Positions 2,910-46,530 of a stretch of 64,000 nucleotides of DNA are shown piece after piece. The notes beneath the pieces are model-generated. The model was not told the DNA's origin, ran no database searches, and saw only the letters and a program-made list of their open reading frames with translations. Positions within the stretch are counted from its first letter, which is position 1. Every line of letters begins with the position of its first letter. Made by a program: the position numbers and the translations under genes. Origin of the DNA: Nitrosomonas sp. JL21 (lineage in GTDB: Bacteria > Pseudomonadota > Gammaproteobacteria > Burkholderiales > Nitrosomonadaceae). Where the stretch lies: NCBI RefSeq assembly GCF_009833095.1, contig NZ_QRCB01000024.1, positions 1 to 64,000 of the forward strand. The letters are read 5' to 3'.

Positions 2910-5900
2910 TTAAATCACGACAATGTCTGCAGACGTCAATGCCAATCCCGTGCCGACCGCGGCAATCTGCGTGGCGCCACCCGCGCCGTTGCCATTGGCA
3001 TCGTAGATCAGAGCCCCGGTTACGCTGTTGTAGATGACATGGTCGTTGGCATCGAGCGCTTGCGCCCCGATGCGGAATTGGCCAGCCGCCAACGTGCCCG
3101 GCGCAGCCAAAGCGGTGAAAACGCTGTTTTCCAGTTGGATCGTGTCATTGACGGCCTGGTAATCCGTGATTACATCCACCGGCCCCATGCTGGTAAACTT
3201 GAAGATATCGTTACCGGCTCCGCCCGTTAAACGGTTCGCGCCCAGTCCGCCATCCAGCATGTCATTGCCAGCACCGCCGTTCAATGGGTTGTCGGCGGAA
3301 TTTCCGGTAATGATGTTCGCTAATCCGTTCCCGGTACCGTTGATCGCTGTTGTTCCCGTCAGCGTGAGGTTTTCGACATTTGCCGGCAAGGTATAAGTCA
3401 GCCGGCTGCTGACCGTATCGATGCCCTGGTTCGGGCTCTCAGTAACCACATCCCCCACATTCTCGACAAAATAGAGGTCATCCCTGAGCCCACCGATCAT
3501 GGTATCGGCGCCCGACCAACCGGTCAGCGTGTCATTGCCGCCCCCGCCATTTAAAGTATCGTTACCGGCCTGACCATTTAACTGATTGTCGGCATTATTG
3601 CCCGTCAACACGTTAGCCAACTCATTGCCCGTGCCATTGATTGCGCTGCCGCCGGTCAAGATCAGCTTTTCGGCATTGACCGGAAGCGTGTATGTAATGG
3701 TGCTGCTGACGGTATCGATACCTTCATTCGGTTTCTCGATCACGGCATCGCGCGTGTTCTCGACATACATCGTGTCATCGCCCGTACCGCCGATCATCGT
3801 ATCGGCGCCCGACCAGCCGCGCAGACTATCGTTGCCCGCCCTGCCATCCAGAATGTTATAGGTTGTATTGCCGGTCAGGTTATCCGCAAACGCGCTACCG
3901 ATCAGGTTCTCAACCGCGGTGATGGTATCCAACCCCGCCCCGCCGGTATTCTGCTGGGTCGTGATATTCAGAGAAACGGTCACGGCTCCAGTGGACGACG
4001 CATAGGTGATGGTATTGTTGCCTGAAGAAGTGCCCGTCAGAACGGTATTGCCGGGCGTGCTGACCAGCATCACGGTAAAGTCCTTGGTACCGGTAAGCGC
4101 CGGCGCAATGTCATCGCCGACGCTGGCGTTGACCGAGAATTCGCCAACAAAATTGGTTGCCGGCGTAAATACCACCCCCGCCAATAACGCATTGACATTC
4201 GCAACCGCACCGCTGGCTTTCCATTCACCGGTTGCCGCGTTGTAACTCGAAGTCACGCCGCCGGATGTTGCCGTGTTCAGTTTGCCAGCCGCACTATTTG
4301 ATAGTGTCAAACTTACGCTAATAATTGTACTATCAGGATCGGTGACGATAACATCTTTTAGATTCAGAGGGTTATTTTTGGTATACACTTCTGGGATAGT
4401 AAGGTTGACTACATTAGGAGCATGATTATTAATTAGAAATTCATCCCAAGCAAAGCTCGAGGCATACCAGTACATTCCCATCACGTAAACATCCAAATCC
4501 CCATCACCATCAATATCTACAAATGCTTGACCGGTCAAACTACTACGCCCGCCGGGTTCTGGGATATTTAACGGATTGGCTTCACTAGAAAACAAAGGAA
4601 TATTCGATGTTCCTATGTTTCTAAAAAAAGAACCATTGAAACCTAAGGAATCTAAATCCCCATCATCATCAACATCTTTGAAATCAAAATCAGATCCATT
4701 CAAACCAAACGAATTGGCAACAGGCTCAGCAAAAATTGGAATGCTATTAGTTCCAATATTCTCAAAAAAATTGTTATTCACAAATATATCTTGATCATTA
4801 TCAGCATCAATATCTGCAAATACGGGTTTGGCATTAAAGCCAGTACCGCTCAAACCAAATGGACTAAATATGGGAGCATTAAATAACGGAATAGCAGCAG
4901 TTCCACTATTCTCAAAAAATAAAATATTTCCAGTTTCATTTCCTATAAATGCATCCTTATCTCCATCATTGTCGATATCGACAAAAGTTGGCGCGGCAAA
5001 ACTCCCTACATCGATCAGTCCGAATGGATTAGTCAGGGCATTGTCAAAAATTGGTTGAGTCGTTGTTCCAATATTTTCAAAAAATAATGTATCTCCGCCT
5101 GGATCTCCAGGATAGGAATAGCTTTGCCCAACAAAAACGTCTAAATCGCCATCACCATCTATATCAACAAAAGTAGGAATCGGATCATAACTAGTTGTAG
5201 GTAAGTGAAAACTAGCGAATGAAAAATTTTCGCTACTGCCTGTCCCTTCATTTTTGAAAAAAGAAGTGTTACCAAAATAAGTACCTTCAAAAATATCTAA
5301 ATCGCCATCTCCGTCAATATCGGCAAATGTTAAGTTTGTATAGGTACTTTCAGCATTTATGTGGAAAGGATTCAAACCGTGGCGATAGAACACTGGATCT
5401 TGTTGCGTTCCGACATTACGAAAAAACCATGTTCCACCAGTACCGAAATAATGATACCAACTCACAAAGGCATCAAAATCACCATCTTCGTCAATATCGA
5501 CAAAATTGATAGTTGTATATCTACTTATATAATTCAATCCAAATGGGTTAGTTTGAGGAGTAGAAAAAGTAGGGGTGGAAGCGGTTCCTATATTTCTGAG
5601 AAATTCCACAGAACCATCACCACTACCAATAAAAGCATCAAAATCACCATCGCCGTCTATATCAACTAGTGATGGCGTAGCATACGAACCAACGTCAACC
5701 AATCCAAACGGATTTGTTACAGGAGATGCAAAAAAAGGAGTATTGAAAGTCCCTATATTTCTAAAAAAAAGTGTATTCCCTTCGGTATTGCCAATAAAAG
5801 CATCCAGATCATTGTCGCCATCGACATCGACAAACGTGGGATTTGCGTTATCAGTTACATCAGTAATTCCAAATGGATTTGTAATAGGAGTATTAAAAAG

Positions 5901-37535: not shown

Positions 37536-39851
37536 CTACTGCAAGTCAAATGCCGAAGACTTGAATTCAGTTGAGACATGGCTGGATAGATACCGGCTAG
37601 CCGTAACCATATTTTGAAGCGCCGGTTTGACTTCTTCCCAGTTGCGCGTTTTCAATCCGCAATCGGGGTTCACCCATAAACGTTCTGGCGGTATCCGCTG
37701 TGCAGCTTTCTTCATTAATTGAATGATGGATTCGACGGATGGGATATTGGGTGAATGAATATCATACACGCCAGGTCCAATTTCGTTCGGATACTGAAAT
37801 TGATCGAAAGCATCCAGTAATTCCATGTTCGAACGCGATGTTTCAATGGTAATGACATCTGCATCCATACCCGCTATCGCTTCCATGATGTCGTTGAATT
37901 CCGAATAGCACATGTGCGTATGAATCTGGGTTTCATCCTTTACACCTTTTGCGGTGATGCGAAAAGCGCGGGTAGCCCAGTCCAAATAACCCTGCCACTG
38001 TGATTTCCTCAGCGGCAACCCTTCGCGCAACGCCGCCTCATCAATCTGAATCATTTGGATACCTGCTTTTTCCAAAGCCAGTACTTCATCGCGAATCGCA
38101 AGTGCTAATTGCATACAGGTCTCAGCGCGTGATTGATCATCGCGCACAAAAGACCAATTCAACATCGTCACCGGTCCCGTCAGCATGCCTTTCATCGGTT
38201 TGCGAGTCAATGATTGGGCATACTGAATCCATTCCGTGGTAATCGGTTTTGGATGCGCCACATCGCCAAAAATAATCGGCGGCTTGACGCAGCGCGACCC
38301 ATATGATTGCACCCAGCCAAATTGAGTAAACGCAAAGCCGTCCAAATGCTCGCCGAAATACTCCACCATATCGTTGCGCTCCGGCTCGCCATGCACCAAC
38401 ACATCCAAGCCTAGTGTTTCCTGTTCACGCACACACACCTCAATTTCTTGTTGCATCGCTTGACGATACTCCTTTTCCGCTAATTGGCCGGTACGGAAAT
38501 CGCGGCGTAATTGACGGATTTGCTGTGTTTGTGGAAATGACCCAATCGTGGTGGTGGGAAAAAGCGGTAACCGGAATCGATTGCGCTGTATGATCGCTCG
38601 CTGATGGTAAGGTGAACGGCGATTGCCCATTTCATCGGCAATTTCCAGCATGCGTGCTTCGACATCCGATCGGTGCACCTGTTTCGATTGCTCGCGGCTG
38701 GCGATTGCAGTTTGATTGTCTGCCAGTAATTCCGCAACACTGGCTCGACCATGATTCAATGCTTTTGCCAATATCTCGACTTCATCGAGCTTCTGGATTG
38801 CGAACGCCAGCCATGAATGAATATCCGCATCGAGTTTTTTTTCACTACTCAAATCAACCGGGACATGCAGCAGAGAGCAGGAAGGCGCCAGCCACAACCG
38901 ATCTTGCAAACGTGTATGCACCGGTTCCAACCAATCCAGCGCTGCGGTTAAATCGGTTTTCCAGATATTACGGCCGTTTACGATACCCAGAGATAAGATT
39001 TTATGGCTAGGCAACCAGTCGATTACTTTGGGTATTTCATCGGGTGCACTGACAGCATCCAGATGTAATCCAGCCACCGGCAGCTCGCAGGCCAATTGCA
39101 AATTATCCTGCAACTGTCCAAAATAAGTCGTCAATAGCAGTTTGACTGACGAAGCTTGCAATTGGTAATACGCCGTGCGCAATGCGTGCTTCCATTGTTG
39201 CGATAATTCCATGACCAGTACCGGCTCGTCTATTTGTACCCATTCAACGCCGGCATTTTTGAATTCACTCAGTAATTGCGCGTAAACCGCCAATAAGTTA
39301 TCAAGCAAATCAAGTCGTTCGCTACCGTCTTTAGCTTTTCCCAGCCACAAATAGGTAACTGGTCCCAGGATAACTGGTTTAACGTGTTGATGGATTTCCT
39401 GAGCCTGATTGATCTGTTCAAGTATGCGGCTGGCATGCAATGAAAAATGGGTATTTTTATCAAACTCCGGCACGATGTAATGGTAGTTGGTATCGAACCA
39501 TTTCGTCATTTCGCCGGCGTTAACGCAGCTACACGAAGAGGTATCCGCAGCCGAGCGTCCCCGCGCAACACGAAAGTAATTGTCAATTTCACTCCCGGCT
39601 AATGTGCTGACCCGAGCTGGAATGTTACCCAGCATAAAGCTCGTATCCAGTACATGATCGTACAATGAGAAGTCACCTACCGGCATCCAATCCAGTTTCA
39701 ACTGATCATGCCAGTGCTGCTGCCGGAGCGTGTCAACCGTACTGAGCAAGGTCTGTTCTGAAATCTCGCCTTTCCAATATTTTTCCAACGCAAATTTCAA
39801 TTCCCGGTTTCTGCCGATTCGAGGAAAGCCCAGATTATGTATCGTTACCAT
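37536..39851 (-). CDS. metE: Cobalamin-independent methionine synthase
   Basis: 771 residues, full length. Two (beta/alpha)8 domains: the N-terminal one opens with [19 protein letters not shown], the C-terminal catalytic one with [14 protein letters not shown]. Zinc ligands are visible in [10 protein letters not shown] (His and Cys), a Glu in the ITIET segment and Cys in NPDCGLKTR. It transfers a methyl group from 5-methyltetrahydropteroyl-polyglutamate to homocysteine. It is divergent from metR, its usual activator, over a 105-base intergenic region, and is followed by the CADD-like gene. Confidence 0.97.
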
Positions 39852-39903
39852 CTTTCAATCACCACTCAAAGATTAATTAAAGTGACCCAATTGTATGGAA
39901 AAT

Positions 39904-39931
39904 TAATAATGAGTAATAATGATAAATTTCA
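39904..39931. promoter_or_regulatory. Possible MetR binding region between metE and metR
   Basis: Two copies of TAATAATGA start exactly 10 bases apart (39904-39912, 39914-39922), and the palindrome-like TGATAAATTTCA (39920-39931) is close to, but one base shorter than, the MetR consensus TGAA-N5-TTCA. The position between divergent metE and metR suits control of both. Confidence 0.35.
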
Positions 39932-39956
39932 ACATTCCAATAAGATTTCCTAATAA

Positions 39957-40856
39957 ATGATCGAACACAGTCATCTGAAAATCATCCAAGCGCTGCATAC
40001 CAATGGCACGTTGACTGAAGCTGCCAATGCGCTTTGCCTGAGTCAACCTGCGCTATCACATCAGATCAGTTATCTGGAAAAGAAACTTGGTATCAAGTTG
40101 TGGGAACGTGAAGGTCGCAACCTGCGCCTGACTCAAGCCGGAACATTGCTACTAGATGTTGCCAATCAAATACTCCCAGTTTTGGCGCAGACTGAAAAGA
40201 CGTTGCAAGCCTATAGCGAAGGCCGCCAAGGCATTTTGCGCATCGGCGTCGAATGCTACCCCTGCTTTGAGTGGCTGACCGGCATGATCGGCCAGTACAT
40301 GCGGCAAATGCCCAGCATCGATGTCGATATCGTGCAGAAATTCCAGTTTTCCGGATTGGAAGGTTTGTTGAATCGCCACATTGATGTATTGATCACGCCT
40401 GATCTGGTCAGAAAAGACAATATCGCATACGAAATTCTGGCGGAGTATCAATTGGTGTTGTTAGCCGCAGAACATCATCCAATGGCTGGTCTGCAGCACA
40501 TCACTCCGGAACTGCTCAGCAAGGAAACCCTATTGACCTTTCCTGTACCGCTGGAACGGCTCGACATCCTCACACATTTCCTCACTCCCGCCCAGTTCGA
40601 GCCGGACAAGCTGAAACCCATCGAATCGCTTGACATCATGCTGCAAATGACCGCCCTCAACCGCGGCGTATGTGTGCTGCCGGAATGGCTCGCCGATCTC
40701 AAAAACAAGGATTTGAATCTCAAGAAAATTCGGATCGGCGACTCAGGACTTTTTCAGAAATTGTATTTGGCGATGCGAGATGCGGATGAGGCGGTTTCAT
40801 ACATCCGGGAATTTATTGCAATAGGCCAGCAAACAGCTAAAAGTTCATCCATTTAA
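39957..40856 (+). CDS. metR: LysR-family regulator MetR
   Basis: 299 residues. The N-terminal winged helix (HLKIIQALHTNGTLTEAANA, LCLSQPALSHQISYLEKKLG) is followed by a LysR substrate-binding domain (LRIGVECYPCFEWL) that in MetR senses homocysteine; that ECYPCFEWL segment is typical of MetR. Divergence from metE is the classic arrangement. It expects to activate metE and repress itself. It converges on the unknown gene at 40892. Confidence 0.93.
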   Translation: MIEHSHLKIIQALHTNGTLTEAANALCLSQPALSHQISYLEKKLGIKLWEREGRNLRLTQAGTLLLDVANQILPVLAQTEKTLQAYSEGRQGILRIGVECYPCFEWLTGMIGQYMRQMPSIDVDIVQKFQFSGLEGLLNRHIDVLITPDLVRKDNIAYEILAEYQLVLLAAEHHPMAGLQHITPELLSKETLLTFPVPLERLDILTHFLTPAQFEPDKLKPIESLDIMLQMTALNRGVCVLPEWLADLKNKDLNLKKIRIGDSGLFQKLYLAMRDADEAVSYIREFIAIGQQTAKSSSI

Positions 40857-40891
40857 ACTATTGAAAATAGATTTCAATTGAGAAAATTTCT

Positions 40892-42637
40892 TCAAGAAAA
40901 CCCGACTTGTTTATCACCAGCAGCGTTATCCATCAGCGAATACCAAAACACAGGTGGCACAGGAGTTGAAAAATGTCGGTACGCGATAAAATCAAGAGCC
41001 ATTAGACCAGATTGCGCTGCTGGAGATTCAAGAAGTACCTTTCCAAACCCCGATTCACAAATCATTTGCATTTGTTGCCGGTATTCACTTGCAGTTGCTG
41101 GCAATTGAATTGGTGCTTCGGCTACACCAGATTCAGAATGTGCGGGCTGGAAGTAAAGATGTTGATATAAATCTTTCTCAGGGTGCCAGAGTTGTATACA
41201 TACTCCTGGATACTGATCGCGTACATTCTGAGCTAACACTTCATACATCTCATCCATCCCCAAAATAACACTCCAACCGGCAAAAGTTGCCAACATCCAG
41301 GATGTTTCCGTCATGCGTTCAGTTGCTTGTCCCCCAAGCCACCCCCCCTCCTCCACCAGATCATCCAAAGAATCTGTAGCGATAGGTACAAATTTCTTTG
41401 CTTTCAAGGCGTAATCTACATTGCGAAACAGCTTCTTTAACCATTCCTTAGCTGTTTCTGTTCGACTTAATCCAAGCAGCGCTATTAATGCCAGATGAAT
41501 GTCTTGACTTTGCCGATCGAGGCATGGGGAACTGCTAGCCCCGTTATTTTGTAGCCATGACTCCAAAGTTTGTATCACTATATTGGCATTTTCTTCCCAG
41601 AAAGTATTTTTTTCATCTGTTTTTTTGCTTCCTTCAGAGATTGCAGAAAATATCTGAAATAGCGCAATACTTGCCAGAATACCGATCTGCTCAAATGCAA
41701 TTAACGACGATTCCACGCCATTCGAAGCATATCGGATTATGCTATTTTCCACGAAACAATACGGTTGAATTCTTGCATGATATTGAACTGTAAAACGATA
41801 GTAAATCCACCATATTTGACGAAGAGGACCAACTATTGCACTTTGTTTGTCTCTTTCATCAGCGAGGCAAATACGGTGCCAAGTCCACAACGTAGCACGC
41901 TCGACCGCACAGAGGCCTTGGCGAGTATCACCGTCATCACGCAGCGTCCAATAAGCAAACATTTGAGCTGATAGATTAACAATTCGCAAAGCTTTCAATA
42001 AAGCTTTCCCCGTCTTAGGCTTGTCGGTTAATCGCCCTTCATCATTCAAATCCAAGGAACGTTTAAATAGACGATATAAGTCTTGCCGGTCATACTCGCT
42101 ATCACCAGATAATGCCAGTGCCCGTCGCAAATCGCGGCGATCTTCGTCAAGAAAAATATGCTCATCTAGAAGATGAATTTCGATCAGCTTAGCAATAGTA
42201 TCGGCTCCCCAAAATTCGATACATGCCCTAGCTTTGTTATCAATGACGAATCCACTCCAATTGGAGTGCACAGTTTGTTTCAACTCTCCGTTAGTTGCAA
42301 CTACAATGCGAATACTACGATCATGATCTTGCGGTTCGAGGTGAGACTTCAAATAAACATCAAAAATCTCGTTGATACTTTGGCGCACAGATTGATTGCC
42401 ACCATCCCATTCGGTACGGCCTATATCTCCTTGCTTGACTACAACAAGCAGTAATTCATCTAAACCAGACTCAGAATCTCTCCCCCTGAATGCAATATCG
42501 ACACCATATTGTCTATTACCAGTTTGTGGGCGAGCCACAGGAATATAATCCATTTCCACCAATAAATCAGGCAACAAGCGATCCAATTCATCTCGCTCTT
42601 TGAGTGAGCGCAAATACTCAGCAATAACCAGCTTCAT
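40892..42637 (-). CDS. Large protein of unknown family with PD-(D/E)XK-like N-terminus
   Basis: 581 residues. I do not recognise a named family. Residues about 15-100 look like a restriction-endonuclease fold: an early helix with Glu29, Asp47 in YGVDIAF, then the hydrophobic strand ELLLVVVKQGD ending in Lys68, followed by a helix (SVRQSINEIFDVY). The usual acidic or Gln residue two before the Lys is Val66, so the active site is variant or lost. Residues 110-165 form another alpha/beta part (IRIVVATNGEL, ACIEFWGADTIAKLIE). The remainder is helical and rich in Trp, with no membrane segment I trust. Its ATG overlaps the stop of the upstream 658-residue gene (ATGA). A 60-base line inside the gene (41581-41640) counts 32% G+C, against 57% in metR (40561-40620). 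Confidence 0.7.
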   Translation of the reverse strand: MKLVIAEYLRSLKERDELDRLLPDLLVEMDYIPVARPQTGNRQYGVDIAFRGRDSESGLDELLLVVVKQGDIGRTEWDGGNQSVRQSINEIFDVYLKSHLEPQDHDRSIRIVVATNGELKQTVHSNWSGFVIDNKARACIEFWGADTIAKLIEIHLLDEHIFLDEDRRDLRRALALSGDSEYDRQDLYRLFKRSLDLNDEGRLTDKPKTGKALLKALRIVNLSAQMFAYWTLRDDGDTRQGLCAVERATLWTWHRICLADERDKQSAIVGPLRQIWWIYYRFTVQYHARIQPYCFVENSIIRYASNGVESSLIAFEQIGILASIALFQIFSAISEGSKKTDEKNTFWEENANIVIQTLESWLQNNGASSSPCLDRQSQDIHLALIALLGLSRTETAKEWLKKLFRNVDYALKAKKFVPIATDSLDDLVEEGGWLGGQATERMTETSWMLATFAGWSVILGMDEMYEVLAQNVRDQYPGVCIQLWHPEKDLYQHLYFQPAHSESGVAEAPIQLPATASEYRQQMQMICESGFGKVLLESPAAQSGLMALDFIAYRHFSTPVPPVFWYSLMDNAAGDKQVGFS

Positions 42638-44610
42638 TGATCTCCTCGTTTAGCAGATCTAAAGCCCAGATTTTTAATTTCATCATTGAGAGGGTCAACC
42701 ACGTATTGTGCTGGCAATGAGATAAAACAAGAAAACGAACCAAGACGGTTGATATCACTGATTTTCCCTTGGAAAAGCGAAAAGCAACCTGTCCCAGCTT
42801 TTAACGAAACTGTTGTACAGAGTTGTCGCAATATCGATTTTTCATTTGCTTTATCTCTTGCCTCTCGGTGCTCTCTAGATTTTTTCAATGCAATACCATG
42901 TCTTATGCGTGTTGGAATTGGCGGACGAAATTCGTGTCGGACAGGCAATTGCTTAATTGCCTCTGTGTAAGTAAGCAAACCCGTTTGCACCTGTTCTAAT
43001 AATTGTTTTTCCTCGGGCGAAGAAGCGTCATTCAATTTTTCCTGAATAGCTTCCAACGTGGATTGAGGATAATTCCGTCCCGCTTCTTCAACCAACAATG
43101 TATAAGCAAGATTAAAGGTTCTTTGCTGAGCATTTTGGGTATTCAGTAATGAAAATATTAACGAAAGCAATGCTTCTTCATGAAACACCCAACCCAACAA
43201 GCGCCGTGCGAGATATTTAAAATCATCAGCGGTTAAAGTATCGAGAATATCTTTCGCAAAAACAGGCTGCCTCACTTCATGAACCCACAAATGACCAATT
43301 AGGTCACGAAAAGCAACACCAAGAATCCTGTCATCAGAAATCAACCAGCGGGTAATCAACTCATGTAACAAGGGCTTGCCGACTAATTCCCTTATGCTAT
43401 GGGCAAAACATGAACCCAATTTTTCATCCGAATTCCTACTATCGTAGTGCTTAACCACCCAAGTTGTTAAGCTGTTATATACCAATTCATCGTGCGTATT
43501 GACTTCAATCAATTGCGACAGAACATAATCAAAATTATTTTCTCGATCCGCATCTAAGCCGGTCAAAGCATCTAAAATTTCTGCAAAACTTGAATGATCT
43601 TTTGCTAATTTGAAATTCATAAAAGCAAAATCGCTAAGTACTAGTAATGCACTCTGATTGTTTGGCTGCGCATGTTTCAAAAGCTCAGTAACTAATTCGG
43701 GCTGTGAAACAGCGGCATTCGCGAGAGCTCTCCAGGCTTGGAGACTAACGTTGGAATCTGAATGATGCCCCACCGCCTTTAAAACTTGCTGCACCCGATT
43801 TTTTAATTCCGATTCTTTTTCCCAATAATCTTTCAAGCAGCCCAATGCCCACAAAGCAGCAGCTAAAAGATCAGCAAATTCAGATGCAGTATCACTCAAA
43901 ACAAGCTCAGTAACATCGACAGAATGACCAGCTCTTGCCATACCGATTAAGGCGGAACCATACAGACCGGTATTCTCAGTTGATATTTGATTTCGAACTA
44001 AAGTGTATAGCTCTCTAGCGAAATCAGGATGATTCGATAGATAATTATTCAATTGATTGAAAAACATACCAGCGGCAAAGTCTCTTGAAGTTTTTAGATA
44101 CTGCGCTTCCACCAAATCAACCAAGCTCTGGCTTTTTATTTCTTTAAGAAACGGTAGTGCATTGCCTATATTTCTCAATACACTAAAAACATAATGAGCA
44201 TCCGAAGCATTAATAGCTTCAATCCCAGTCTTTAAAACATCAATTTTCTGAGAAATTAATCCTAAAAATCGACCGCTGGCGAAGTCAGTATGTCCAATTT
44301 CATCAATCTCCAATTGATGCGCTTCATCAAAAATTTCCTGAGCATTCAAGAGCGCATCAGAGTTTCCAAGTTTCTGGAAACTGTGCACTGCTGTACAGTA
44401 ATTTCTTGCTGCAATTGAAATAAATCTTAGTTCACTATCTTCAATGTAAAAAAGCCCATCAATAATGTGTTTTTCTGAAAGGAAATCAGAACTTGAAATT
44501 TCGATCACTAAATCCATAGTACGCCGACTATGAAGTTCGGATGCAAGTCTCGAAATATCCTCAGGAATTTCTTCAAATTTCAAATCAAAAACAGGAATAC
44601 TGCTATTCAT
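42634..44610 (-). CDS. Large alpha-helical repeat (HEAT-like) protein of unknown family
   Basis: 658 residues, no recognised family. Nearly the whole chain reads as paired helices of 30-45 residues, as in HEAT or ARM solenoids: for example ALIGMARAGHSVDVTELVLS, LLAAALWALGCLKDYWEKES and SLQAWRALANAAVSQPELVT. The last 80 residues differ: a basic stretch (RIRHGIALKKSREHREARDK) and a beta-rich tail (CFSLFQGKISDINRLGSF). No signal peptide or membrane segment is seen, so it is probably cytosolic. It is translationally coupled to the downstream PD-(D/E)XK-like gene. A line inside it (44041-44100) counts 28% G+C, while yqaA next door (45001-45060) counts 63%, a sign of transfer. Confidence 0.68.
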   Translation of the reverse strand: MNSSIPVFDLKFEEIPEDISRLASELHSRRTMDLVIEISSSDFLSEKHIIDGLFYIEDSELRFISIAARNYCTAVHSFQKLGNSDALLNAQEIFDEAHQLEIDEIGHTDFASGRFLGLISQKIDVLKTGIEAINASDAHYVFSVLRNIGNALPFLKEIKSQSLVDLVEAQYLKTSRDFAAGMFFNQLNNYLSNHPDFARELYTLVRNQISTENTGLYGSALIGMARAGHSVDVTELVLSDTASEFADLLAAALWALGCLKDYWEKESELKNRVQQVLKAVGHHSDSNVSLQAWRALANAAVSQPELVTELLKHAQPNNQSALLVLSDFAFMNFKLAKDHSSFAEILDALTGLDADRENNFDYVLSQLIEVNTHDELVYNSLTTWVVKHYDSRNSDEKLGSCFAHSIRELVGKPLLHELITRWLISDDRILGVAFRDLIGHLWVHEVRQPVFAKDILDTLTADDFKYLARRLLGWVFHEEALLSLIFSLLNTQNAQQRTFNLAYTLLVEEAGRNYPQSTLEAIQEKLNDASSPEEKQLLEQVQTGLLTYTEAIKQLPVRHEFRPPIPTRIRHGIALKKSREHREARDKANEKSILRQLCTTVSLKAGTGCFSLFQGKISDINRLGSFSCFISLPAQYVVDPLNDEIKNLGFRSAKRGDQ

Positions 44611-44793
44611 CTTACTTCGTTCTCAAACATTTTTGCCAATGGAAGATAGTTAAATAAAAGAATCATCTTTCAAATTTTGTTGGTTAATCTCAATAAGTAT
44701 ATTCTATTACCTGACTCTAAATTTTCACTATCAATTTCCATCGCACTTCCAATATCCCGCTAAACTATCGTCCTTCTAATCTCACTCATTACC

Positions 44794-45213
44794 ATGGACG
44801 AACAATCCAGCCTCCTGGCATTATTCACCAGCAGTTTCCTAGCCGCTACTCTTCTTCCCGGCGGCTCAGAAGCGGTGCTCGTGGGGGTATTGGTGACTTA
44901 TCCGGATTTACACTGGCAAGCACTCATTTTAGCGACGATTGGTAATACGTTCGGCGGGATGAGTTCTTATCTGATTGGACGGTTGCTGCCCGATGAAAAT
45001 GCTGTGCTGAAGAAAGCGGGAGGCAGTGCTCGGGGACTGGATTGGGTTAGGCGGCATGGGGCCCCAATTTTGTTGTTATCGTGGGCGCCCTTGATTGGAG
45101 ATTTGTTGTGCGTTGCCGCCGGATGGTTACGAACCCATTGGGGATGGGCATTGTTATTTATTGCTATCGGAAAATTTGCGCGCTATTGGGCGATTGCGGC
45201 AGCCATAGGGTAA
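44794..45213 (+). CDS. YqaA/DedA-like small membrane protein
   Basis: 139 residues, with three or four membrane segments. It opens with FTSSFLAATLLPGGSEAVL and continues with ATIGNTFGGMSSYLIGRLLP and WAPLIGDLLCVAAGWLR, the pattern of the YqaA branch of the SNARE-associated/DedA membrane proteins. The Pro-Gly-Gly-Ser-Glu and later Gly-Asp positions match those thought important in DedA relatives. Some DedA proteins handle lipid carriers; the function of YqaA itself is unclear. It stands alone, divergent from the unknown operon and convergent with grxD. Confidence 0.85.
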   Translation: MDEQSSLLALFTSSFLAATLLPGGSEAVLVGVLVTYPDLHWQALILATIGNTFGGMSSYLIGRLLPDENAVLKKAGGSARGLDWVRRHGAPILLLSWAPLIGDLLCVAAGWLRTHWGWALLFIAIGKFARYWAIAAAIG

Positions 45214-45295
45214 GGATAGAAGATAATTAGTGGGCGATCCAGCTCATTTGCATGTCGAATCAAACGAACTGAACCGCGCTGATAATGAATCTATT

Positions 45296-45604
45296 TCAAT
45301 TTTCGAATAATTTTTGCAGTTCGCCGCTTTGATACATCTCCGTCACAATATCCGAACCACCAATGAATTCACCATTCACATATAACTGAGGAATGGTGGG
45401 CCAGTTGGAATAATCCTTGATGCCCTGTCTGATTTCCGGATCTGCCAGTACATCGACGGCATAAATATTATCGACACCACAAGCCTTGAGAATATTCACC
45501 GCATTTGCGGAGAAACCGCATTGCGGCTGATCTAATGAGCCTTTCATGTAAAGAACTACCGGATGAGTGCTAATTTGTTGCTCGATTAAATCTTCAACAT
45601 TCAT
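45296..45604 (-). CDS. grxD: Monothiol glutaredoxin GrxD
   Basis: 102 residues. The monothiol active site CGFS lies in QPQCGFSANAVNIL (about residue 29), with the glutathione-binding segments WPTIPQLYVNGEFIGGSDIV. Proteins of this class carry a glutathione-ligated 2Fe-2S cluster and deliver it in iron-sulfur assembly, often with BolA. GGAG lies 12 bases before the ATG, a little far. It is next to prmC in the same direction, and glutathione synthesis genes lie elsewhere in the window. Confidence 0.96.
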   Translation of the reverse strand: MNVEDLIEQQISTHPVVLYMKGSLDQPQCGFSANAVNILKACGVDNIYAVDVLADPEIRQGIKDYSNWPTIPQLYVNGEFIGGSDIVTEMYQSGELQKLFEN

Positions 45605-45669
45605 AGTGTTAATTTCTCCAAAAAATCATTCCAAAAATTTTGTACCTTAAAACGTTGTCAAGTGCCTTA

Positions 45670-46530
45670 TCAGTTGCTGCTATTGCTGCCTGAATGAAAA
45701 GCCGTTGCCTGACCGCCGCTGACGCGCATTATGCCAGCCAAATCCGGATAGGAACAAATATTACTAAAATCTGCATCACGCAACAATCGCCTGCATTCCT
45801 CGGCTTGATCATATCCGTGCTCGAACAGCAACCAACCTGCATTCACGAGAAAGCCAGAAGCCATGCTGATAATATGTTGAATACACGTCAATCCATGAGT
45901 CCCTGCAGATAGCGCCAGCCGTGGTTCGAACCTCAAATCCCCTTGCTGCAAGTGAGGATCGGCTTCTGCCACATAGGGGGGATTGGATACTATCAGATCG
46001 AAGGTATCGGATGAAAGTTCATCAAACCAACTTGCAGTGATGCAGCGAAGATTATTGACGCGTAAATTGCTGGCGTTGCTCCGGCACACTGTAATTGCAT
46101 CGCTGGAAACATCGACAGCCGTCACCTGGGCGTAAGGTCGGTGCTTGGCAATGGTAATCGCAATGGCGCCGCTTCCCGTCCCCAGATCCAGTATTTTCAA
46201 TGGCTTATCAGCGGGGATATGCTGCAAGGCCAGATCCACCAATAATTCGGTCTCCGGGCGCGGAATCAACACGGCATCGGAAACTTTGAAGGTCAGATCA
46301 TAGAATGCACGCTGTCCGGTTAAATAAGCAACCGGCACACCTTCCATGCGCCGTTGGATCAGATTCAAGAAATTCGCGTGCTGCTGCTCAGTGAGTATTT
46401 GTTCGGGGTGAGTCAATAAAAAGGCGTGTTCGACATCAAGCACATGCTGCAGCAACATCTGCGCATCGACTTTATCAACGATTGCTGCTGTTGCCAGCGC
46501 TTCTGCAATGGTGCTGGGGTATATCGCCAT
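45670..46530 (-). CDS. prmC: Peptide chain release factor glutamine methyltransferase
   Basis: 286 residues from the ATG at 46530. The N-terminal helical bundle is followed by a Rossmann methyltransferase core: LIPRPETELLVDLAL, KILDLGTGSGAIAITIAKH (S-adenosylmethionine loop, about 112-130) and the catalytic NPPY in LIVSNPPYVAEADPHL. It methylates the GGQ glutamine of release factors 1 and 2. prfA, its common upstream partner, is not seen here; grxD follows, as often in betaproteobacteria. Confidence 0.95.
   Translation of the reverse strand: MAIYPSTIAEALATAAIVDKVDAQMLLQHVLDVEHAFLLTHPEQILTEQQHANFLNLIQRRMEGVPVAYLTGQRAFYDLTFKVSDAVLIPRPETELLVDLALQHIPADKPLKILDLGTGSGAIAITIAKHRPYAQVTAVDVSSDAITVCRSNASNLRVNNLRCITASWFDELSSDTFDLIVSNPPYVAEADPHLQQGDLRFEPRLALSAGTHGLTCIQHIISMASGFLVNAGWLLFEHGYDQAEECRRLLRDADFSNICSYPDLAGIMRVSGGQATAFHSGSNSSN

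Follow-up and report, generated by a model that had tools for sequence, protein, structure and literature searches.

What is encoded by the two large genes that separate metR from yqaA in Nitrosomonas sp. JL21, and how did they come to lie there? We addressed this question in a window of 64,000 nucleotides (positions 1 to 64,000 of contig NZ_QRCB01000024.1, RefSeq assembly GCF_009833095.1), in which the names metR, yqaA, and metE were assigned to open reading frames (ORFs) by eye. A sequence-only reading had described the two genes, which overlap by the four bases ATGA, as an unassigned island. We confirmed both as minus-strand ORFs in that arrangement (Table 1), and profile matches indicate that they are almost certainly a member of the Olokun antiphage defense system.

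Identity and linkage of the gene pair

The first gene matched the OloA model of PADLOC-DB (PDLC03925, E = 2.8e-91; residues 87 to 656 on positions 14 to 595 of 596), and the second matched the OloB model (PDLC03926, E = 1.4e-152; residues 1 to 570 on positions 1 to 555 of 556). Both models are thus fitted nearly full length, with about 70 extra residues ahead of the fitted part of OloA, and the genes are adjacent in the Olokun order, oloA and then oloB. Every sequence in our final alignments (81 of OloB and 73 of OloA) matched the same models. The earlier description of the proteins as belonging to no recognized family held for NCBIfam, where neither had a match, and for Pfam-A, where all matches were subthreshold (HEAT_2 among them), but not for PADLOC-DB. 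Because both proteins matched the Olokun models, we abandoned the reading of the pair as a novel system. A Pfam CK1gamma_C match in OloB (E = 0.014, below the cutoff, 3 of 81 members) was taken as chance. No Rfam match was found across positions 39800 to 45700.

We then examined how consistently the two genes occur together. A scan of species genomes yielded 146 OloB relatives, of which 80 were used; with four plasmid loci and four viral-contig loci, this gave 88 related loci. Judged by record titles, those from the scan include Proteobacteria, cyanobacteria, Paenibacillus, Bacillus, Anaerolineales, and others. An OloA relative lay upstream of OloB at every one of the 88 loci, and the four-base overlap recurred in 64 of them. 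At 85 loci, OloA was seen as an ORF in the first pass; the other three have oloA in broken pieces (L034), as a fragment at a contig end (L052), or further upstream, beyond a transposase pair (L004). The pair in L004, a Tolypothrix plasmid, is of the ISAs1 family and occupies positions 4808 to 5895, between oloA and oloB. Some copies, e.g., L081, L039, and L049, are split between frames.

Of 274 genomes in the class, the same two (the source genome and one other) contained full-length OloB and full-length OloA, which were adjacent in both. Thirteen of the 15 class genomes with an OloA-profile match had short matches only (68 to 182 model positions, E = 1.6e-7 to 8.6e-4), which we regarded as HEAT-repeat cross-matches, and one short OloB match (E = 7.9e-4, model positions 387 to 471) was not counted. 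Within the family, OloB was present in 3 of 125 genomes, all of them Nitrosomonas. These results indicate that the two genes travel together and are not core genes of the group.

Carriage by phages was considered and set aside. A tblastn search with OloB found no match among 50,697 phage records, matches in 34 of 72,556 plasmid records, and four IMG/VR loci. The corresponding OloA search matched no plasmid record, though OloA adjoins OloB on the four plasmids examined, likely because OloA diverges faster (mean column identity of 25%, versus 41% for OloB). Among 593 flanking ORFs of at least 100 amino acids (aa) from 79 of the 80 loci, compared by BLAST at E = 1e-8, no third component recurred, a threshold at which distant families would be missed; the largest family of flanking ORFs occurred in four loci, and the members shown were integrases by eye.

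Predicted folds and the candidate active site

OloA was modeled with a predicted local distance difference test (pLDDT) score of 91.3 as an alpha-solenoid of HEAT/ARM repeats, in agreement with what had been read from its sequence, followed by a small C-terminal part with short strands in which G606 is invariant in the alignment of 73. For OloB (pLDDT, 88.5), the predicted structure showed the alpha-beta core of the PD-(D/E)XK superfamily in the N-terminal domain, so that the restriction-endonuclease fold suspected earlier was indeed predicted. Structure searches placed MspJI among the closest folds, and Avs4 was also among the fold matches; the structural matches of the helical remainder were varied helical proteins. 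The alignments that accompanied the structures covered 80 loci for OloB and 72 for OloA.

We looked into the putative active site in 88 OloB sequences, comprising the window and 87 of the 88 related loci (L034 was omitted because its start is missing; the first residue was set to M). Alignment and predicted fold bore out the earlier reading of Asp47, of the strand LLLVVVKQG with Lys68, and of valine at position 66, two before the lysine, where the superfamily usually has an acid. The superfamily's Asp and Lys were present in all 88 sequences and were kept down to 23% identity to the OloB of the window. The usual acid was absent from all 88 (position 66: S in 44, V in 27, T in 15, and C in 2). 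The invariant residues were E14, D19, G40, G45, D47, K68, and R74. Since residues 1 to 9 and 17 to 26 were used to find the relatives, conservation there is partly built in; D47, K68, R74, and E14 lie outside these patterns, and D19 was checked on 24 sequences that did not match the second one. In the helix that follows the strand with Lys68, position 90 was E in 73 sequences, Q in 9, D in 5, and S in 1.

A profile of OloB residues 1 to 165 compared with 30 Mrr_cat (PF04471) sequences gave a weak match (score, 26.6; P = 7.7e-4; probability, 25%), with scores of at most 17.7 in 40 column-shuffled controls. Its register placed D19 on a helix Glu, D47 on the Asp, V66 on a Gln, and K68 on the Lys of QxK. 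Mrr_cat was absent from the Pfam matches of OloB, and a PDB sequence search with OloB returned no match up to E = 10. In predicted fold and in the order of first helix, Asp47, and Lys68, OloB resembles the Mrr, MspJI, and FokI nucleases; it differs from them in its 400-residue helical part and its solenoid partner protein, and from Mrr in having S, V, T, or C where the aligned Mrr sequences shown have Q. The N-terminal domains of Avs4 and of LmuA (Lamassu) offer a further comparison: those systems work with ATPase parts, whereas the partner of OloB is a HEAT solenoid without a recognized enzymatic domain. Elsewhere in the source genome (contig C4, 6689 to 7032, minus strand), two Mrr_cat matches overlap in different frames and possibly represent a frame-broken Mrr nuclease gene. 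Cap4_nuclease was present in 4 of 150 genomes of the order.

On this basis, we consider it fairly probable that the Olokun pair travels on a small mobile cassette and that OloA senses or docks and OloB cuts upon infection. The OloA solenoid would most likely be the sensing or docking subunit. OloB would carry, on its helical domain, a nuclease site made up of Asp47, Lys68, the helix acid Asp19, and probably Glu90 in place of the E-x-K acid. Upon infection, some trigger would cause a complex of OloA and OloB to release the nuclease activity, either against phage DNA or, in the manner of abortive infection, against all DNA; we infer the complex, its trigger, the cleavage, and the substrate, and we put the chances of the nuclease-effector step at about even. 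A more specific formulation, in which Olokun is a two-subunit solenoid-gated nuclease and OloB a PD-(D/E)XK subclass marked by Asp19, Asp47, [S/T/V/C]-x-Lys68, and Glu/Gln90, is offered tentatively.

The idea of nuclease action is not new: PMC10855318, in a table whose mechanisms are either predicted or experimentally validated, already files Olokun under "Nuclease Activity-Nucleic Acid Degradation." A passage in an Escherichia coli hotspot study (PMC10121019) credits the system to Millman et al. (2022, Cell Host Microbe 30:1556). A review table (PMC12926258) gives its mechanism as unknown, a statement in PMC12592470 describes it as not thoroughly characterized, and the entries in PMC12390725 and PMC13268207 merely list it. 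Among the papers listed for the names OloA and OloB, none was relevant by title.

The missing acid allows a different view of OloB. Its N-terminal domain might be nuclease-like in fold but catalytically dead, serving only to bind nucleic acid or the partner protein, with protection arising otherwise, e.g., by OloA and OloB sequestering a phage or host factor. The absence of an acid at position 66 throughout and the incomplete conservation of position 90 are consistent with this. However, a dead domain need not keep Asp47 and Lys68 over such distances. Moreover, the lack of an acid at this position does not imply a dead enzyme, because active members of the PD-(D/E)XK superfamily can have the acid elsewhere: as described in PMC6344858, CCGG restriction enzymes have the order PD...K...D/E, in which the Glu is replaceable by Gln or Asp. 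The active-site glutamates of PfoI occupy yet other positions, and one of them lies on an N-terminal helix; its removal lowered activity about 50-fold. Like the CCGG family (Cfr10I, PfoI, and others), OloB lacks the E-x-K acid, and the helix after its Lys68 strand has an E/Q/D that is conserved in part. The likeness is one of residue pattern; in OloB, 22 residues separate Lys68 from Glu90. We therefore regard OloB as probably an active nuclease with a relocated acid and the dead fold as unlikely.

Slightly less likely still is that Olokun acts as a type IV-like, modification-dependent restriction system, with OloB as an Mrr/MspJI-type cutter that targets modified or otherwise recognizable phage DNA directly and OloA aiding target recognition. 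MspJI among the closest folds, Mrr_cat as the weak profile match, and the lack of a recurrent third gene near the pair are in keeping with this reading. On the other hand, the weak matches of the 81 OloB sequences include no Pfam domain that reads DNA (the helical part is unassigned), the fold matches also include Avs4, and HEAT/ARM solenoids usually bind proteins.

Table 1. Features of the Olokun pair and its insertion site, in positions of the window
Feature	Positions	Strand	Description or basis
oloA	42634..44610	-	ORF, 658 aa; HEAT/ARM alpha-solenoid, almost certainly Olokun subunit A; PADLOC and predicted model
oloB	40892..42637	-	ORF, 581 aa; predicted restriction-endonuclease-like N-terminal domain and helical domain, almost certainly Olokun subunit B
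ATGA, overlap of oloA stop and oloB start	42634..42637	-	ORFs
metR-yqaA interval, occupied here by Olokun	40857..44793	.	Genus comparison
OloA residues 88-555, HEAT/ARM solenoid	42946..44349	-	Predicted structure, alignment
OloA residues 606-658, small C-terminal part, short strands	42637..42795	-	Predicted structure, alignment
OloB residues 1-159, PD-(D/E)XK (restriction-endonuclease) fold	42161..42637	-	Predicted structure, profile comparison
OloB residues 160-570, mostly helical part	40928..42160	-	Predicted structure
OloB Asp19 codon	42581..42583	-	Asp in 88/88; aligned with Glu of first Mrr helix
OloB Asp47 codon	42497..42499	-	Invariant, 88/88
OloB Lys68 codon	42434..42436	-	Invariant, 88/88
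OloB Glu90 codon, candidate relocated acid	42368..42370	-	Helix after Lys68 strand
AATATCCCGCTAAACTAT, short block adjoining yqaA	44751..44768	+	By-eye comparison

Acquisition and the metR-yqaA hotspot

The flanking ORFs, metR (39957..40856) and yqaA (44794..45213), are both on the plus strand, so that oloA and oloB run opposite to metR. The pair is compositionally odd relative to the rest of the window. The G+C content was 39.0% for oloA and 43.2% for oloB, compared with 49.2% for metR and 47.3% for the whole window; in 500-base windows, the island ranged from 34 to 45%, and the one over yqaA was at 50.8%. The figures given earlier (28 to 32% for the island, 57% for metR, and 63% for yqaA) were not reproduced, but the direction of the difference stood: of 42 ORFs selected in the window, all 150 aa or longer, oloA and oloB had the lowest G+C contents at third codon positions (GC3; 0.316 and 0.357).

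We compared the site across 85 genomes of the genus, 53 of which gave a metR and 82 a yqaA. Of the 53 genomes with metR, 32 had the two genes within 20 kb of each other, 5 had them far apart on the same contig, and 16 had them on separate contigs. Among the 32 genomes with both genes close, the gap measured 79 to 157 bases in 12, 324 and 355 bases in 2, and 1.0 to 13.3 kb in 18. All three Nitrosomonas OloB copies lay in this interval. The 17 occupied sites besides the window, together with 3 of the 12 near-adjacent ones, were compared with it; PADLOC and Pfam scans covered 10 of the 43 cargo ORFs at these sites, and the other 33 were compared with these ten by blastp.

The 18 occupied sites carried different genes. 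Olokun was present in three, one of which (G086) has a SoFic-like Fic protein beside it. DSR1 was found in three (in one as two ORFs), other SIR2 proteins in four, Fic proteins without Olokun, DSR1, or SIR2 in three (one in two pieces), and a PDC-S15/FRG protein in one. At 14 sites in total, a protein either matched a PADLOC model or was closely related to one that did. In the SIR2 group, the matches to PADLOC were partial (E = 1e-6 to 5e-16), and Pfam SIR2_2 was above the cutoff. Two further sites held CoiA-nuclease-like proteins without a PADLOC match. The remaining two contained none of these: one has a 221-aa protein without matches, and the other has a 13-kb stretch of ten ORFs covered by the blastp comparison only. 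A block like AATATCCCGCTAAACTAT was seen by eye in all three near-adjacent sites and in five of the eight occupied sites printed, the window included. These results show that, in Nitrosomonas, insertions recur between metR and yqaA, which makes this interval a hotspot that carries different defense genes. In Pseudomonas, Olokun is described in a passage of PMC12629846 as concentrated in one genomic-island hotspot. No title on a metR-yqaA hotspot appeared among the matches listed for Nitrosomonas and defense, too few to call the site unreported.

Two kinds of hotspot insert merit separate description. At L101 (673 to 1983) and L106 (690 to 2006), a protein of 437 to 439 aa stands alone; that of L101 has CoiA nuclease-like, DUF6035, and DUF7830 matches, and that of L106 is 77% identical to it; they are candidate defense genes. 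At L108 (4117 to 8052), DSR1 appears as two consecutive ORFs (704 and 605 aa), each matching one half of the model; they may be a broken gene or separately made subunits.

Furthermore, we compared substitution rates among the three carriers. Synonymous divergence (dS) was 0.24 to 0.49 for oloB and 0.29 to 0.48 for oloA, compared with 0.71 to 1.26 for metR and 1.04 to 1.31 for yqaA, and nonsynonymous divergence (dN) was below dS for all four genes throughout. Read most simply, these values mean that movement of the cassette postdates the divergence of its flanks and that the cassette has been under purifying selection, although differing synonymous rates in genes of different composition could also produce the contrast in dS. 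Together with the sporadic occurrence, the hotspot, and the low GC3, this supports the acquisition proposed in the sequence-only reading.

The neighbors of the pair in other genomes were also assessed. For each side of the pair, the nearest ORF of 150 to 1,200 aa lying no more than 3 kb away was taken, giving 137 (L008 and L009 were omitted), of which 9 longer than 900 aa were dropped. The remaining 128 matched 399 PADLOC families at E = 1e-10 or better, a count of families and not of members, in which many models overlap and ATPases cross-match. Among the matches listed (25 of the 399), the best GajA, PtuA, and AriA models, which belong to Gabija, Septu, and PARIS, respectively, were matched by 3, 3, and 4 neighbors. 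The control set, 38 of the 40 other selected ORFs of the window (1162 to 63969), matched two families, mad2 (E = 1.2e-22) and PDC-S33 (E = 5.1e-16), with one member each; these may be housekeeping relatives. The comparison suggests that Olokun neighbors are enriched in defense proteins, an enrichment that cannot be read as a rate because the models overlap, ATPases cross-match, and a single region supplied all controls. The defense look noted earlier is thus supported by the PADLOC matches, the hotspot cargo, and the neighbors elsewhere. A nondefense role, e.g., in DNA repair or in regulation of the met genes, for which adjacency to metE and metR might speak, is very improbable given the sporadic occurrence in the family, the orientation opposite to metR, the exchange of the site with DSR1, SIR2, Fic, and FRG proteins, and the GajA-, PtuA-, and AriA-like proteins beside some homologues.

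Implications

As an Olokun member, the pair is ordinary but well placed, and its predicted active site can be tested: residues D19, D47, K68, R74, and E90 of OloB offer a direct mutational test of the Olokun mechanism. Moreover, a compact metR-yqaA defense hotspot in an ammonia oxidizer may help to find further systems, for instance among cargo such as the CoiA-nuclease-like proteins.

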